Shown one piece after another: positions 10,771-64,000 of a stretch of 64,000 nucleotides of DNA. The notes beneath the pieces were generated by a model. The model was not told the DNA's origin and did not search any database. It worked only from the letters and a program-made list of their open reading frames with translations. The DNA is from Diploscapter coronatus. Lineage: Eukaryota; Nematoda; Chromadorea; Rhabditida; Rhabditidae. A program made the position numbers and the translations under genes. The stretch's first letter is position 1. The number at the start of each line of letters is the position of its first letter. The stretch spans positions 60,039,201 to 60,103,200 of the forward strand of contig OZ038422.1 in the NCBI GenBank assembly GCA_964036155.1, in the 5' to 3' direction.

Positions 10771-11392
10771 CCATTGTAAAAAAACTTGACAGTCGCAGTG
10801 CCCTTCGCACAAGGGGGCGGTGCGAACAGCACGCTTCCCGCTCGCGTCGCGGCATGCATTGCGAATTCATTATTCAAACTGGATTTCCACTTTCATTTAT
10901 TTTTTTCAACGTTTTCATCCGTGATTTTTATAATTATTCGGTAATTATCGATAATTAGAGCTAATTACCTTTAGGTGATTCAATGAACAGCCACTTTTCA
11001 CTTATTTCTCTCGTATTTTGCAGTGATTTTTTAAATAGATTTTTGAATTTCTTCAAAATTGTGATAATTACCGATAATTAGAACATAATTACAGATACAG
11101 GTTTTAGTTTTCTGTTTATTTCGTGTTTTTTCGTGACTTTTTATCGTTTTTCTCGATAAAATGATTTCTTGAGCATAATTTCTCAGCAAAATTATGTAAT
11201 TATATCCTAATTATCGATAATTATCGAATAATTATAAAAATCACGGATGAAAACGTTGAAAAAATAAATGAAAGTGGAAATCCAGTTTGAATAGTGAATT
11301 CGCAATGCGTGCCGCGACGCGAGCGGGAAGCGTGCTGTTCGCACCGCCCCCTTGTGCGAAGGGCACTGCGACTGTCAAGTTTTTTACAATGG
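10771..11392. mobile_element. Foldback element with about 170-bp inverted repeats
   Basis: The ends CCATTG / CAATGG begin arms of about 170 bp (10771-10945 and 11225-11392) that are inverted copies with very few mismatches. The arms include a GC-rich block, CGCACAAGGGGGCGGTGCG, which stands out from the AT-rich surroundings. The interior is rich in 'taattatcgataatta'-type palindromes. No coding sequence. I could not identify a clear target-site duplication. Confidence 0.8.
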
Positions 11393-16271: not shown

Positions 16272-16724
16272 GACTTTGTTCGCCTTCAATTTTTTTGTTT
16301 CCTAATAGTAAGTTCAAGTCGTGTAATTTTCAAATCATCAATAAACCGTTGTTAGAATTGAAAGACAAAAATAAAAGCAAAGAAAGAAGAAGAAAATTAC
16401 GGTACCCGAAATTAGAAAATCCACAGGACAAAGTTATAAAACAGTATTTTCGCAATTTTCATCATCAAAAATCTTTAAGAATTGGCAGGTTTCAAAATAT
16501 TATTGGGCTGTCTTATGAGTTTTTTTCCCACTTTTCAGCTTTGGAATTTTCTGAAAATTGATTTGCGATAAATCTAAAGAGTTTACAACTTTCGTTGGTA
16601 ATTTGCCTGTTCTTCTAAAATAATATCATAAGAAAGTTTCAAGTAAAGTGGGAAAGGACTTTATAAGGCGGCAACCCAATAGAGTATCCTTTGTAAATGT
16701 TCAGCTTTCATGCATGGGGTTGCC

Positions 16725-25983
<9,259 letters not shown>

Positions 25984-56932: not shown

Positions 56933-59900
56933 ATGGTATATATCGGCATCGATCTGGGCACGACATATTCGTGCGTAGCAATAATTGAAAATGGAGCATG
57001 CAAGATAATTTTTGATGGCGAGGGTAAATTAATTTTGATATATATATGATTTTCAAAGTAACAAATTGTTTAGGGAAAAATTTCCTTCCATCTATAGTTT
57101 CTTTCGGTGACGAAGAAACTCTGGTAGGCAACCTAGCTCTGAATTACCATGATTTATCAAGTGTTCTCTACGGTTAGTTTAACGCTTCTGCTGATCATTT
57201 ATTAGGTAATCTTTTGAAGATTCAAAACGACTCCTTGGATGGAAATTTATGCATAATTTGCCAATTGCGGAGAATCGCTTACTTTGGACATTCAACTTGG
57301 ATACAAGAAAGGTTCGTAACTTATATTTTCAATAGAAACTCATTCGACCTGTTGATGTTATCAGATCATTTCTCCTAAAAATCTATCCCAAATTATAAAC
57401 CGAGGATTTTCTAAAAGTACAAGCATCGATCTAAATTACCCATCTCTTCATAGAATCAAATTCTGATAAAAATGAATAGCTTTGAGAGTTCAAAATCAAA
57501 AGGTAGAGTAGATTTTATTATAGGCCTTACGGTATTTAATTCCGACTAATTTAGGATAAAGTGGGATATGTTTTGAATAAAGGAAAGCCTAATGAAAGAT
57601 TTGTGACGCCCGAAGAGGTTTCTGCTGAAATTTTGAAGAAAATAAAGACCACTGCTGAGGTTCACTATTTTCAATGTTCTGAAAGTTATACTGATTTTAA
57701 TATTAAGTCATATATTGGAAGTCAAGTGACTGGCGCAGTGATCACAATTCCAGCTAATTTTCAAGAAAGTCAAATAGCTGCAACAAAACGAGCTGTTGAA
57801 ATGGCTGGACTGGAATTGAAGCTATTAATTGAAGAGCCAATAGCGGCGGCAGTTGCTTATAATGCTGAAAGGAAATTGGACGATTCAATGATAATGATAT
57901 TCGATTTTGGTGGAGGTAAATGGTTATTTTATTATATAATTTGTTTCATACAATTCATTTATACGCAGCTGAATTAGAAGAACTCTTATGCATTCGACTC
58001 TGAAAAATTTAAACAATATGGTTTAGGAACTCTCGATATTAGCATATGCGAAATAAAGAATGGAAAAGTTACGATTAGGGCTGTAAAAGGAGATGAGCAC
58101 TTAGGTATATTTTTCATACCATGCAAATAATTTTTTTGTATCAGGTGGACAGGATTTCGACAGCATAATTATGAATCATGTTTATGCTGAATATATGCAA
58201 TTATCGAATAATGATATTTTTGCGACTAATCGTTTGGTTAAACGGTTGAGAAACGAATGTAGAAGGGCTAAGGAAGCATTATCTTTTACTGCTTCAACAG
58301 TAAACATTCATGTAAACAGTGAAAAATAAAGCAGTTGTATAATTTTTCCAATTTAGTTGGATATCGATATTGGGCCGGACTTAGATGTAAATTTAACAAA
58401 AGCAAAATTCAACGAACTGTGTAATGGTTTATTCACCAGAGCGATAAATTTAATCGATCAAGCATTAAGGATGGCTCAACTTCATGAAAATGATATTAGT
58501 CACGTGGTATGTTTTATTCAAATCAAATTTTCCAATTTAATTTTTTTTTTAAATTAAATATTTGTATTTAGATTTTGGTGGGTGGATCTACAAGAATTCC
58601 TGCCGTTAAAGAGCTTCTCGAGAGAAAATTCGGACGAGATAAATTGAAGTGCAAAATAAATCCAGATGAAGCGATTGTTTTTGGAGCAGCTAACTTGGCT
58701 GATGCTATTGAAGTAGAAATTATTATACTGTGAATATTTAAACAATATTTTAGAAGAGAAAGAAAATTCCATTGATTAATAATACAATGGCTGAATTATC
58801 CTGGAATAATAATGATTTGCAGATTGGTGGAGACAATTCGCATAAAATTTTATTCTATCGTAAGAAATTATGTTGAAAGCTAAGTAAGAGACCTTGAAAC
58901 GATTCGTAATAATTTAGTTTATTATCGAAATGATGAAATATATGAAGGAAGAATCTGTTTGTTCAATGTATATACCTGCTCAGTCGAAAAGATTGCGAAA
59001 TTTCACACTTGGTATAGATCAGATGAAATAGCAACTACACAGAATAAAGTAAATTCTTATGTTCGTTATTTTGAATAATTTCCCAGATTTCAGATTTTTG
59101 GAATTCGCAACAATAAATCACTTGAAATATATGACTTGAATACTCGACAAGTTTCAAGAGGTCTTATCAACAGATCTATGAATTATCGATTCGAAGAATA
59201 TTACAGGCCCAGATCCTCCTGAATGGCGTGAAGATGCATCTATCGCTTGTTTCAAAGACAAGTTTTATTATTTGGGTGGAAAGGATCTTAAAAGACAATG
59301 GGGAAATACGAATCGAGTTGATGTAAGAAGATCGAATGAAAGTCCATGAAATAATTATTCAGGTTTTAATAGATGGAAAATGGGAAACAGGACCTGCTTT
59401 TCCTCATCCAACTAGATGTGCTCGAACAATAACATGCGATGAAAGCTTATACGGTCACATTATAACATATGCGTTATTGTAATTATGGATATTCAGTTAT
59501 TGATAAATGGTATAGTGATCAGATATATCGATTATCAGACAATGAACAAGAATGGATTGAAATTGGAGAGATTCTAGAGCAACGAGAGTTATTCGGAGCT
59601 GCATCGCTAAATGGAAAAATTTACATAACTGGAGGATACTAGTCGTTAATCTTGTATGATAAATAGCGTATCATTATATATTTAGTGATGGTGATATATT
59701 AAAATCCTGTTTATGTTTCGACCCCTCAATTCCAGTCTACAATAAAATTTTTCGAATCGCTGATATGAATTATACAAGAAAGAATAATTCACTCATTGTC
59801 GCTAACGGGAAATTGTATGTAATCGGAGGGTGAGCTGAGATTTTGCATATCTTTATACGAAATATTTGTTAACTTACAATTAGATTTCAAACACCTTTCT

Positions 59901-61127
59901 GTGAAAATTTTTGCAATTCAATTGAGGAATACGATCCACAAGCGAATAAATGGTGTGAAGTTGGAAAAATTAATCCGGATGAAATTTTATTCTATCGTAA
60001 GAAATTGTTGAAAGCTAAGTAAGAGACTTTGAAACGATCCGGAATAATTTAGTTCATTATCTAAATAATAATAATAATAATAATAATAATAAGGATGAAG
60101 GAAAGATATGCTTGTTCAATTCATCTACCTACTCAGTAGAAGATATTACAAAATTCCACAATTATTATGAACCATATGAAGTAGCAACTACACAGGATAA
60201 GGTAAATTCTTATGTTCGTTATTTTGAATAATTTCCCAGATTTCAGATTTTTGGAATTCGCAACAATCAATCACTTGAAATATATGACTTGAATACTGGA
60301 CAAGTTTCAAGAGGTCTTATCAACAGATCTATGAATTATCGATTCGAAGAATTTTACAGGCCCAGATCCCCCTGAATGGCGTGATGATGCATCTATCGCT
60401 TGTTTCAAAGACAAATTGTATTATTTGGGTGGAAAGGATCCTAAAACAAAAGAAAATACGAATCGAGTTGATGTAAGAAGATCGAATAAAGTCCATGAAA
60501 TAATTTATTCAGGTTTTAATAGGTGGGAAATGGAAAATAGGACTTACATTTCCTCTTCGAATTAGTTGTGCTCAAACAATAATATGCGATGGAATTTTAT
60601 ACGGTCACATTATAGCATATTCATTATTGTAATTATGAGTATTTAGTTATTTATGGACTTCATAGTAAAATGATATATCGATTATCGTATGATGAGCGGA
60701 AATGGACTGAAATAGGAGAGATTGAAGAAGAACGTTGGGATTATGCAGTCGCATCGTTAAATGAAAAATTTTACATAACTGGAGGATACTAGTCGTTAAT
60801 CTTGTATTATAAATAGTGTATCATTATATATTTAGTGGTGTTAATGCATTAAAATCCTGTCTGTGTTTCGATCCCTCAGCTTCAATTAATAGGCGAATTT
60901 CTCGAATCGCTGATATGGATTATGGAAGATTAGGTCATTCGCTCATTGTCGCTGACAGGAAATTGTATGCAATCGGAGGGTGAGCTGAGATTCAGCATAT
61001 CTTTACACGAAATATTTGGTAACTTAGATATCAAGATGATTCTATGAGAGTGCTTTGTAATTCAATCGAGGAATACGATCCACAAACGAATGAATGGCGT
61101 GAAGTCGGACAAGTTAACATAAAATAA
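56933..61127 (+). CDS. Hsp70 ATPase domain fused to two Kelch-repeat modules
   Basis: About 24 exons join in frame to 950 residues. Residues 1-377 (56933-58712) are a complete Hsp70 nucleotide-binding domain: [12 protein letters not shown] (phosphate 1), DSKRLLG with the catalytic Lys, [24 protein letters not shown] (phosphate 2), LGGQDFD and [11 protein letters not shown] (adenosine motif). The interdomain linker and both substrate-binding parts of Hsp70 are missing. A 41-nt intron (58713-58753) leads in frame to [10 protein letters not shown] and then to two tandem modules (about residues 413-681 and 682-950). Each has Kelch-type signatures: [37 protein letters not shown]. Introns in the Kelch part are 38-57 nt. 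If the 58713 intron were not removed, the protein would end at 58733-58735, giving an ATPase-only isoform. A fusion is inferred from frame continuity; a transcript would prove it. Exons are AT-rich, unlike those of BLM and MRE11. Confidence 0.8.
58842..61127 (+). repeat. Tandem duplication of the Kelch module
   Basis: The unit starting at about 58842 recurs at about 59980, an offset near 1138 bp. Exon order, intron positions and intron phases are the same in both copies, and even intron sequences match (for example the gtaagaaatt introns at 58860 and 59997). By eye they are about 85-90 percent alike, and both copies keep an open frame. Confidence 0.85.
60064..60091 (+). repeat. (AAT)n microsatellite inside a coding exon
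   Basis: A trinucleotide run of about nine AAT units, in frame, encodes an asparagine tract in the second Kelch module. The first module has RNDE at the same place, so the run expanded after the duplication. Confidence 0.8.
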
Positions 61128-61637
61128 AGCTTGATTATAATAATCTCAGATTTCATATAGAAATGTTATTCAATAAAATATGAAATAATAGTTTAATTTC
61201 AATGCCCATGATACAGATTAACCCTCGAAAATATTCACTCTGAAGTAAGTTATTCTGGAAAAATCGAAACTTTGCATTTTTTTCACGCATTACACTCATT
61301 TTGAACAGTTTTCTTTATTTCAAAGTTTGACTAGCAAATTCAGGGCTTAAAATTTTCTATTTTTCTTGAAATTTGAAAATTAGTATATTTAGAAAAATTA
61401 TAGCCCCTCTTCTGCTAATTAACGATTAAAAACAACGAAATTCAACAAAACAACGAATTTGAATAAAATTTTCAAAATCAACAAGAAAAAATCACTAAAA
61501 GTTGGAACATTTCACGAATTTTCGATTCATCTGATAATGGGGGAATTTATCAAAGGAGAAACTTTTCCAGAAAAAAGTGGTTTCCAAAATATGTTTTTTT
61601 TTTCAAAAAGGTGAATTTTTCCAAAATGTCTGAAAAA
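61128..61637. other. Intergenic stretch between convergent 3' ends
   Basis: AT-rich. AATAAA at about 61170 may be the polyadenylation signal of the Hsp70-Kelch gene. No other feature seen. Confidence 0.4.
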
Positions 61638-64000
61638 TTATCGAGATGTCTGAATGATTTCCTCCCCGTCGATGATTGTTCGGATTGCCCTTCTCGATGA
61701 GGGCTCATTTGGCAACTTTTTTCCCGACCGGCCGCTTTTTGACATCTCGAATTTCGGCAATGGCTCGTTCAGTAGGGCGTTCAGTCTTTTCTAAAAAAAA
61801 TGTATTACTTCCAAAGCCTTATTTTATCTTTATAATTTTATTTTAGGCAACAAAACCTTATCATCTCAATGACTTTTTCTTTGATTTTTATTCCCGAATT
61901 CCTGTTTTTCTTTCGAGGTTACCAATCTCCCCACTACATTGCTCAATTTATTTTAAGATCGATTTTACCAGTTGAAAAAGTCTCAAATTTTATATTTTCT
62001 TTCAAAAATCCGTTTTTTCAAATCCGCCCCACCTTGATGCTCTTCTCTGTTAGTCGTTTATCTTCCATCTCCTGAGTGTCGTTTTCCCTTTCTCTCGTTC
62101 GTGCATCGTCTTCGTCCAAATCTGCCTCACGGACGATCTTTTCGAACCAGCTCTCTTTCAGGCGGATCTGAAAATGTTCGAAAAATTGATGTTTTGAAAT
62201 TTTTGTTATTGAAGCTCGGAAAAATCTTTTTCTTTTTAATGATTTCTTAAAACATTAATTGTTTTTATTCCAAAAATTCGAAGTTTCCACCCCCACCTTC
62301 TTCCTCTGGTAGTTGACGCGCTCCAACTCGCTGCACGTCTCGACCCGCTCCCTCAAAGTGTCCATCAGCTCGGGGAAGTCGATTTGGAACAGTTTCAGGT
62401 CTTCGGCTGAAATTCGTATTTTTTATTTAAATTTGTTATTACTCTGAAAATAGAAAATATTCGAGAAATTCTAATTTTTCAATGTTTAAATATCGATTTT
62501 CTAAACTTTGCAAAAACTGCACCTCGATTGAGCATCCTGCAGAGTTTTCTGTACAAATCAGCTGATTTCGGGTCGATGAGGAGAATCGATTTTCCGCTGG
62601 CCGAGGCCCTTGCAGTTCTGCCTGATCGGTGGATGTACATCTTGAAATCTTCCATTGTTTCAATTTTTAAACATTTTTTGAACATAATTTGCTTGATGTT
62701 ATTTTCTTTTGTATAAAAGCAAAAAAATTTTATCTTTTTCTTCGAAACCGACCTCAGCCTTAACCGGCACGTTGTAGTGAATCACGTGGTCGACGCCCTT
62801 GATGTCCAGACCCCGAGCGGCGACGTCCGTCGCGATGAGCGTCGAATTCGGGACTTTCGCGAAAGCCTCGATGCTCCGGAGCCGTTGTCGTTGTGCCATA
62901 TCGGCGTGAAGAAGCAGGGGTTCCATTTTGAGCAGCGACAGCAGGTTGTAGAGTCTGAAAAGAGATCGTTTTCTTTCTATAAAAGATATTTTATTTTTAA
63001 AGAAATCATTTTCAAGCATACTAACCTTCTAGCCCCCGTCATGGAGTTTGCGAAAATCAACGTCCTTCCCGGATGTCGAGTCAACAAGTAGATGACTGTG
63101 GTGTCCTGAAATTTCCATTTTCAAAAGGAATTCCAAGTATCGAGCTTCTTAAATTATATTAACTTCTTCACGAAACCATTTTCTCGGACATTATATTATT
63201 CCAAAAATATAATCTTTTCCAGAAGATCATCATAGTTTACATGTTATAAAATTCCATTTTTCAACCTCAGAACAATTTCTTCTTCAAAGTTATTTTGTTC
63301 TAGAGCATCTAGTCTAGAATTTTATTGGTTTAACCCAGCAAATTCTCGTACCTTTTCCAGGAGATTGTCGCAATTGATTCTCGACTCCTGAATGGCGCCT
63401 GCCATGCCGAACTCCTTCGTCACGTCGACCACCTTCTTCTTGCCCTTTCTCAACCCAGCAATTTCGACCAAACGTTCTGGAAAATTCTATTCTAGACAAT
63501 TCGACTTTTTATTAATATCGATTTTGCATTGTAAAAATTCGGTGTTGCTCAATTTTCATTTTTGTTCATTTATTCTTTTCTAGCATTTTGCACCTTCAAA
63601 ACTTTTCAAGACTTACGAATTTTCTCCTTCGTAGATAACTTCTTGTTTTCGTCTCCCTTTTTCTTCAGATTCGGGGTGACGAAAGTCAGTGTAGCCGAGA
63701 AGACCATGGTTTGAAGTTGAGATTTATCAGCGTGCAGTTTGATGTACTCCAAAATCTGCGCGAGCTCCTCGAAATGATTGTCCTCGACCATTCGGTCCAT
63801 CTCGTCGATCACCAGGCATTGGAGGGCGGAAAAGTCCTAAAAGAGTTGATTTTTGTCTAGATTTTGAAAATTTTAAAAATTGATCTTTTTCCTTTCAACA
63901 AATTGCTGGTTTTCCTATTGTTTTGTGGTTTTGAAATTTTATTTATTTTTTTTAAATCTAAGCGAACTAACCTTTAGATACGACCCCTTCTCAGCGGATT
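61638..64000 (-). CDS. DEAD-box RNA helicase, DDX24/Mak5 type (3' part)
   Basis: The gene runs out of the window at 64000, so the N-terminus and the Q and Walker A motifs are not seen. Exons in view: about 63972-64000 (SAEKGSYLK), about 63618-63838, about 63352-63478, about 63025-63105, about 62753-62955, about 62523-62660, about 62296-62407, about 62035-62169 and 61638-61790. The Walker B-type motif is CLVIDEMDRMVEDNHF (DEMD in place of DEAD), followed by MVFSATLTFV (motif III), TLIFANSM, LHADMAQRQRLRSIEAF, TLIATDVAARGLDI (motif V) and YIHRSGRTARA (motif VI). The 'RMVE.NHF' and 'QRQRLRSIE.F' contexts resemble DDX24, which acts in large ribosomal subunit assembly. The C-terminus is rich in Lys/Arg/Ser. 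The exon at 62523-62660 could alternatively begin at an AAG acceptor just before MYIHRSGRTAR, which would restore the usual spacing. Confidence 0.9.

Follow-up and report, generated by a model that had tools for sequence, protein, structure and literature searches.

An Hsp70 nucleotide-binding domain joined to tandem Kelch units in Diploscapter coronatus: gene model, relatives and a possible role in recognition

Hsp70 proteins are among the most conserved chaperones, and the peptide-binding domain is their defining output. What, then, is a gene in which an Hsp70 ATPase domain continues into Kelch repeats? The gene considered here lies in a stretch of 64,000 nucleotides from the nematode Diploscapter coronatus (GenBank assembly GCA_964036155.1, contig OZ038422.1, positions 60,039,201 to 60,103,200 of the forward strand). 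We refer to the whole of this stretch as “the window” and number all features from its first letter. Judged from its sequence, the gene is a real protein-coding gene, one of dozens that combine an Hsp70 nucleotide-binding domain (NBD) with Kelch units. Below, we describe the gene and its relatives, the divergence of its parts, and what the protein may do.

One gene from ATPase domain to Kelch units

Positions 56933–61127 of the plus strand can be spliced into one open protein of 950 amino acids (aa) in 24 exons, from an ATG at 56933 to a stop codon at 61125–61127. The protein consists of an Hsp70 NBD, a linker of ~30 aa, and two tandem Kelch units. A domain search of the 950-aa model, which an earlier note on this DNA had recommended, gave Pfam HSP70 at residues 4–376 (E = 1.9e-106), followed by Kelch_1 (E = 2.5e-44); together with the open 24-exon model, these matches bear out the in-frame fusion of the two domains that the note had proposed. 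The best solved-structure matches were human Hsp70 ATPase domains for the first part, and designed and natural Kelch propellers for the second. The HSP70 match stops at position 375 of the 599 in the Pfam model, i.e., where the ATPase domain ends; the peptide-binding domain (SBD beta and lid) is absent. The note had described a protein with neither linker nor substrate-binding domain; this is right for the peptide-binding domain and for the DVLLLD-type hydrophobic interdomain linker of Hsp70, which is not the linker of this protein, but a different linker of ~30 aa is present. No Pfam match to BTB, BACK or F-box was found in the 950-aa protein at E values up to 1, and tRNA and Rfam scans gave no match.

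The NBD (377 aa, 56933–58712) is encoded by nine exons: 56933–57023, 57074–57172, 57220–57311, 57555–57659, 57708–57915, 58027–58104, 58145–58311, 58357–58506 and 58572–58712. The segment at 57660–57707 is a 48-nt, in-frame GT-AG intron that is easily taken for a 16-aa insert. We read it as an intron because the homologous gene, described below, carries two stop codons in the same segment; a 966-aa model that included the insert was rejected, and the ~950 residues given in the note are correct. The 966-aa version was used for the protein searches, the NBD tree, the comparison with human Hsp70 and the splice-site scores, and the 950-aa version for the model and the Pfam searches. Downstream of the NBD lie a 41-nt junction intron (58713–58753) and the linker exon (58754–58859), which resembles linkers of Diploscapter pachys. 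An intron of 23–25 nt at 58860 was replaced by one of 58 nt (58860–58917) with an TAATTTAG acceptor. The Kelch part is a tandem duplication with a unit of ~1.14 kb, and inspection by eye suggests six blades in each unit. Unit 1 (58918–59982, from the model and Pfam) comprises exons 58918–59048, 59094–59160, 59207–59322, 59363–59453, 59497–59641, 59686–59829 and part of 59884–59996. Its copy, unit 2, spans 59983–61127 with the stop codon and comprises exons 60053–60201, 60247–60313, 60360–60472, 60513–60603, 60647–60791, 60836–60979 and 61028–61127. The frames of the Kelch copies are open, and the idea that they are pseudogene relics was rejected. On the same strand, an AATAAA located 45 nt past the stop codon (61172–61177) is, by its motif, a candidate polyadenylation signal.

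The fusion depends on the junction intron, whose position had been predicted in the note. Its splice scores are in the range of those of the 21 other introns of the 966-aa model: the donor (3.9 bits) is stronger than 5 and weaker than 16 of them, and the acceptor (8.6 bits) is stronger than 15. The intron is also kept in the homologous gene, at 43 nt and with 5/41 differences. Further support comes from the many paralogs that share this junction, both among D. pachys proteins and as pairs of NBD and linker exons in the genome.

The assembly comprises 169.7 Mb in three contigs, the two large ones being of 87.7 and 82.0 Mb, which, together with the D. pachys matches, is consistent with a single chromosome pair in a Diploscapter whose haplotypes were resolved. 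The DNA next to the window gene has an 87% identical counterpart on the other large contig; this flank includes a helicase-like neighbor, which served to locate the homologous place. Just upstream of the helicase flank on that contig lies a homologous gene with the same NBD-linker-Kelch-Kelch order, with 938 codons and a stop, GT-AG boundaries in 23/23 introns, and no internal stop (exons 3, 4a and 4b were placed by hand). Because the codon at the place of the window ATG is not ATG, the start of the homolog must lie elsewhere or have been lost. The gene was not among the DNA matches listed for that contig; its absence was considered and rejected, as it is present at ~76% identity.

A whole-gene DNA search gave 55 matches at 69–100% identity (the best 40 of 1357 candidates scored). 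Among 150 NBD last exons, 48 have a linker exon ≤400 nt downstream, and 41 of these 48 pairs are spaced by 40–61 nt. When DNA-level Kelch matches are added, 56 of the 150 scored NBD last exons form NBD-Kelch junctions, with the two contigs taken together. At least 150 exons in the genome are similar to the window linker exon. An 18-nt motif from a Kelch-unit intron occurs, with ≤1 mismatch, at 884 places in the assembly and, as a reversed control, at none. The scored exons were the best 150 of 340 NBD, 319 linker and 634 F-box candidates; because the best candidates alone were scored, the genome counts are lower bounds.

Relatives and other heads of the Kelch cassette

When the Kelch part was used as a protein query, the top three matches were all from D. 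pachys, each with HSP70 and Kelch domains; the only other match with HSP70 among those listed was P0087, a D. pachys kinase-HSP70 protein. A query of the NBD and first Kelch residues found 22 D. pachys proteins among the best 120 of 7993 matches. By blastp, NBD and then Kelch segments are present in 13 of 23 D. pachys proteins (these 22 and P0087); the note had suggested looking for both domains, in this order, in nematode proteins. It knew of no reported protein with this architecture; the protein is not unique, since public D. pachys models already contain the architecture as unnamed hypothetical proteins. Among the matches listed, in searches limited by length and word-sharing, no protein from another organism had both domains; P0124 residues 385–610 as a query matched only P0124 itself. 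Several D. pachys gene models look imperfect, and P0001, by eye, seems to contain a Kelch exon translated in the wrong frame. A tree of 34 NBDs places the window NBD in a clade whose other 20 rows are all from D. pachys (support 100/99), with three further D. pachys NBDs outside. This tree, whose alignment is not that of the published study of Diploscapter Hsp70s (PMC6872716), fixes the clade membership of the window NBD, not its position within the clade.

The D. pachys proteins also vary in other ways. In P0003, P0133, P0140, P0149 and P0229, a second actin-fold-like segment (DAIAIDIGTSKCKIAICKE or similar) follows a related Hsp70 NBD. With or without Kelch in between, this is another output change in the same family. 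P0134 and P0137 repeat the end of the NBD after the linker, and P0137 repeats the linker too. Residues 349–723 of P0001, a Kelch-bearing NBD with lost ATP-site residues, represent a pseudo-ATPase branch.

The Kelch cassette is also found behind other heads. Thirty cassette loci were considered: L010–L038, which are 29 of the 55 whole-gene match places, and L043. In seven loci that lack an NBD within the DNA examined, the exon directly 5′ of Kelch encodes an F-box-like segment in four (L027, L028, L029 and L037), L033 has a linker exon directly before Kelch, and nothing was recognized there in L023 and L038. The Pfam cut-off for PF12937 is 24.3 bits; the L027 segment lies above it at 24.7, and the L037 segment below it at 23.6. 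At least 150 F-box-like exons, 82–98% identical to the query, are present in the genome, indicating a very large F-box/Kelch family. Among 32 listed F-box exons on C1 below 39.9 Mb, compared with 100 of the 884 motif places, 17 are followed on their own strand by an exact copy of the Kelch intron motif, and none on the opposite strand. The distance from exon to motif is 765–798 nt in 16 of the 17; the corresponding spacing in the window gene is 809 nt. A separate adjacency count from partial lists (20 of the 150 listed F-box exons) found Kelch within ≤300 nt of 4 of 20. The Kelch cassettes of the F-box loci share introns with those of the window. Since F-box-like exons of this genome are immediately followed by the same cassette, the note was right to bring in F-box Kelch proteins for comparison.

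A third head is suggested by kinase-Kelch sequence in D. pachys models P0002 and P0087. In the genome of the window, 5 of 26 protein-kinase genes have Kelch ≤2.5 kb downstream; this count covers 26 of 138 rows and a partial, hand-picked Kelch list, so kinase-Kelch genes are thinly supported there. Kinase genes followed by cassette sequence stand at C1:21888750, C2:54994670 and three other places.

Proposed recognition by the propellers, and its alternatives

What could such a protein do? We consider it somewhat more probable than its negation, going by sequence, that the gene encodes an ATP-binding recognition protein whose propellers stand in for the peptide-binding domain and whose NBD takes the place of the F-box, the target being held or remodelled. 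That the propeller may replace the peptide-binding domain had been suggested in the note; this idea fits, and the interpretation in the note is, as a whole, partly supported. An ATP switch, as in the note, is conceivable in that ATP-site residues are kept, but those coupling Hsp70 NBDs to linker and J-protein are replaced. In Kelch proteins like KEAP1, the ligand face is made up of the BC and DA loops, and the propellers would bind protein ligands via this face. The ligands would change fast; proteins of parasites, viruses or selfish elements would be obvious candidates. The NBD would bind and hydrolyze ATP, and it sits where the F-box relatives appear to carry an E3-recruiting F-box. Targets that propellers of this class recognize would be held or remodelled in an ATP-dependent manner, not ubiquitinated. 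With the J-protein and interdomain-coupling residues replaced, J-proteins probably do not govern the ATP cycle in the usual manner. Kelch cassettes would be exchanged or converted between genes, and recognition would therefore change faster than the ATPase.

The evolution of the Kelch cassettes was followed in 36 of them, comprising 34 unique full-length matches in the 30 loci and the two window copies; this is not a random sample of the 884 places. Three cassettes have internal stops (one each in L033, L037 and L011) and were dropped from the entropy tests and from the loop-by-loop tests of the ratio of nonsynonymous to synonymous divergence (dN/dS; elsewhere Ka/Ks), leaving 33. Among 216 comparisons of interior Kelch exons, six of which pair the reference with itself, 93 show a length difference, and this is always a multiple of 3. 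Kelch introns differ in length in 98 of 245 comparisons, 38 of the 98 by a multiple of 3. In 506 of 630 cassette pairs, the exons are more diverged than the intron cores. Across the 33 cassettes, dN/dS is 1.63 in BC loops (5–95% interval 1.18–2.52), 1.00 in DA loops, 0.51 in AB loops, 0.58 in CD loops and 0.53 in strands, making BC the sole loop class above neutrality. These ratios come from counting between pairs of related sequences and do not amount to a site-model test; loops and strands were assigned from the predicted structure of P0001, with 34/266 residues past its end unlabelled, and intervals came from 60 resamplings. In the P0001 model, which stops inside the last blade, strands may be assigned to groups of four. 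An earlier version, with loops drawn by hand from the Kelch motif after the entropy profile had been seen, gave 1.38 for loops and 0.46 for the rest.

Synonymous sites of the Kelch core codons are also more diverged than intron cores (median synonymous divergence, pS, of 0.214 vs. 0.112 in the 33 cassettes). This excess is explained neither by neutral drift nor by simple positive selection. An unlikely alternative, though the least unlikely of those considered, is that gene conversion among the hundreds of cassettes, more than selection for recognition, accounts for introns being conserved while exons diverge; the synonymous excess in the exons speaks for it, since simple positive selection does not predict such an excess. 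However, dN/dS exceeds 1 in BC loops alone, with AB and CD loops near 0.5, a pattern for which conversion alone gives no reason.

Exchange of cassettes is suggested by the two parts of the gene themselves. Between the window gene and its homolog, NBD introns differ by 33–44% and NBD synonymous sites are saturated, whereas the junction and Kelch introns differ at 63/674 positions (9.3%) and Kelch Ks is 0.20; the change in divergence falls between intron 58507–58571 and the junction intron. In five other paralogs (L015, L016, L019, L021 and L022), the NBD is closer to that of the window (87–90%) than Kelch is (79–82%). The pattern in the homolog is the opposite of that in the other paralogs, and therefore the two parts differ in history. 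Both patterns would be explained if Kelch cassettes are exchanged between genes or altered by gene conversion.

The window NBD is 41.8% identical to that of human HSPA1A over 368 positions (measured with the 16-aa insert), and, by comparison with human Hsp70, its ATP-site residues are present. In 11/11 close paralogs, the nine NBD exons are of equal length and without stops, Ka/Ks is 0.17–0.26, and eight ATP-site positions are unchanged (D10, T13, K71, E175, D199, T204, G339 and D366). As far as sequences can tell, the NBD is intact and under strong purifying selection. At the equivalents of HSPA8 R155, R171 and N174, which we take to be J-protein and interdomain-coupling residues, the window has I, L and E; the I is common to 11/11 paralogs and the L to 10/11. 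For the predicted fold of the D. pachys P0124 NBD, all listed structure matches are of the Hsp70 family, and the R171C-auxilin complexes among them agree with this coupling role. The replaced coupling residues, and a P0001 without catalytic residues, are what one would expect if the NBD were an inert actin-fold scaffold or regulatory module and the propellers alone mattered. We regard this as rather unlikely, given the eight ATP-site positions unchanged in all 11 close paralogs and a Ka/Ks of ~0.2.

The junction allows a further alternative, that both a fusion and a short protein are made, by splicing and by retention of 58713–58753, respectively. Retention would add VEIIIL and then a TGA (58733–58735), yielding an NBD-only protein of 383 aa. 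D. pachys P0135 is annotated with a similar end, although an annotation error could account for that. As no AATAAA begins anywhere from 58656 to 59042, production of the short form would depend on a full transcript that keeps the intron, and we think it unlikely that both products are made. It is highly improbable that the locus consists of two genes or an operon, with the NBD-only protein ending at 58733–58735 and a Kelch protein starting at ATG 58787. Such an arrangement would make use of the in-frame stop within the unspliced junction intron and of TTTTAG at 58753, which could be a trans-splice acceptor, and the end of P0135 looks like read-through into the intron. Against it, the D. pachys linkers, to which the window linker is ≤74% identical, conserve the protein sequence encoded ahead of ATG 58787, and the ATG is not a conserved start: four of nine linkers aligned there have M (P0003, P0127, P0137 and P0144), five have L, V or I (P0124, P0134, P0138, P0140 and P0146), and the homolog has I. 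The gap from stop to acceptor is only 18 nt, and the 48 of 150 NBD last exons with a nearby linker exon, 41 of them at 40–61 nt, also argue for a single gene. Equally improbable is a decaying pseudogene or repeat copy that was noticed through the abundance of Kelch (884 motif places, internal stops in 3/36 cassettes), given the open 950-aa frame, the exclusively triplet changes in interior exon length, the conserved NBD, and a homolog whose frame is intact apart from its unplaced start codon.

Several observations weigh against an ATP-binding recognition protein with fast-changing propellers. Kelch stands without an NBD in 7 of the 30 loci, within the DNA examined, and 102 of 150 linker exons, among the best-scored, have no NBD exon ≤400 nt upstream. 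Overall Kelch Ka/Ks has a median of 0.74 and is >1 in 9% of the 630 pairs, and across the Kelch family divergence is nearly the same at all three codon positions. Ka/Ks is 0.84 between window units 1 and 2, and 0.98 and 1.00 between the window and homolog Kelch units, with intervals that include 1 in all cases. By projection, one of eight NBD donors in L013 is not GT. P0001 has lost ATP-site residues (D10H, T13M, K71N and D199N), so ATP use is not universal in the family. Lastly, the AlphaFold models are of modest quality and represent D. pachys gene models, not the window protein: that of P0124 has a mean predicted local distance difference test score (pLDDT) of 74, with most of the linker and first blades <50, and that of P0001 has a mean pLDDT of 70.5 and a predicted template modelling score of 0.47.

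The reading can be extended, tentatively and with more doubt than confidence, to the whole Kelch family. Several hundred shared Kelch cassettes with a hypervariable BC face may be shuffled among three effector heads, i.e., F-box for degradation, protein kinase for phosphorylation, and Hsp70 NBD for ATP-driven holding or remodelling, as an innate-immunity-like repertoire of Diploscapter. The window gene would then be the Hsp70 form, with a doubled recognition unit and client specificity set by the fast-evolving propeller.

Known systems and other features of the window

The Hsp70 expansion of Diploscapter has been published as cluster III (Weinstein et al. 2019, PMC6872716), with 59 genes and positive selection at the root of the cluster. 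The authors treat the expanded Hsp70s as heat adaptation, and the word “kelch” is absent from the main text. The window NBD groups with D. pachys NBDs that include WR25_05901, a gene listed by name where that paper tabulates the cluster II/III branches; the passages on the Hsp70 expansion do not discuss a missing peptide-binding domain. Neither “hsp70” nor “kelch” appears in the main text of the paper on the D. coronatus genome (PMC5483258). In the open-licence literature searched, by titles and abstract beginnings, no Hsp70-Kelch fusion is described; the words “Diploscapter” and “kelch” co-occur in the texts of PMC11139335 and PMC6826867.

The F-box/Kelch receptors of SCF ubiquitin ligases resemble the window gene in that the same cassette and introns follow F-box-like exons in its genome; the window gene has no F-box, and carries an Hsp70 NBD and linker exon in that place. 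Fast evolution of F-box and MATH adaptors in Caenorhabditis was reportedly described by Thomas in 2006. That work is named in PMC12062965, whose text describes positive selection in the substrate-binding FTH domain vs. constraint on the F-box. According to the text of PMC5392922, C. elegans F-box and MATH adaptors are under positive selection and induced by infection, whereas C. briggsae showed no response of any F-box or MATH gene. On these accounts, the Caenorhabditis adaptors share with the Kelch family a lineage-specific expansion, a positively selected binding part and a constrained recruiting part. Unlike it, they use FTH or MATH binding domains, recruit an E3 rather than carry an Hsp70 ATPase, and have no cassette common to several effector types.

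Canonical Hsp70s (HSPA1A/HSPA8, DnaK) are alike in NBD sequence and ATP-site residues, and in the predicted fold of the P0124 NBD; the window protein differs in lacking a peptide-binding domain and a DVLLLD-type linker, and in its replaced equivalents of R155, R171 and N174. It differs from BTB-BACK-Kelch (KLHL) proteins in having no BTB or BACK match in Pfam. HSPA13/STCH is an Hsp70 that consists of the NBD only. HSP70s without a peptide-binding domain also occur in bacterial conflict systems, according to the text of PMC7159879. Such NBD-only proteins share with the window protein an Hsp70 NBD that lacks the peptide-binding domain, but they have no propeller.

A worm lineage would thus have kept the ATPase constrained, dropped its output domain, and joined the NBD to recognition modules in dozens of genes. 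Whether an Hsp70 NBD can drive another binding module becomes testable. The published Diploscapter Hsp70 expansion could also be read differently, in terms of recognition and conflict and away from heat tolerance.

Elsewhere in the window, a Pfam scan of ten other open reading frames gave one match, Helicase_C (within 62702–63028), in the helicase-like gene on the minus strand (62255–63836, extent by eye). Near-identical direct repeats stand 16.27 kb apart (1–300 and 16272–16571; 1218–1377 and 17490–17649), perhaps reflecting a recent duplication or a mobile element. An inverted repeat (10779–10905 and 11259–11385) has 127-nt arms that are 98% complementary and 353 nt apart.

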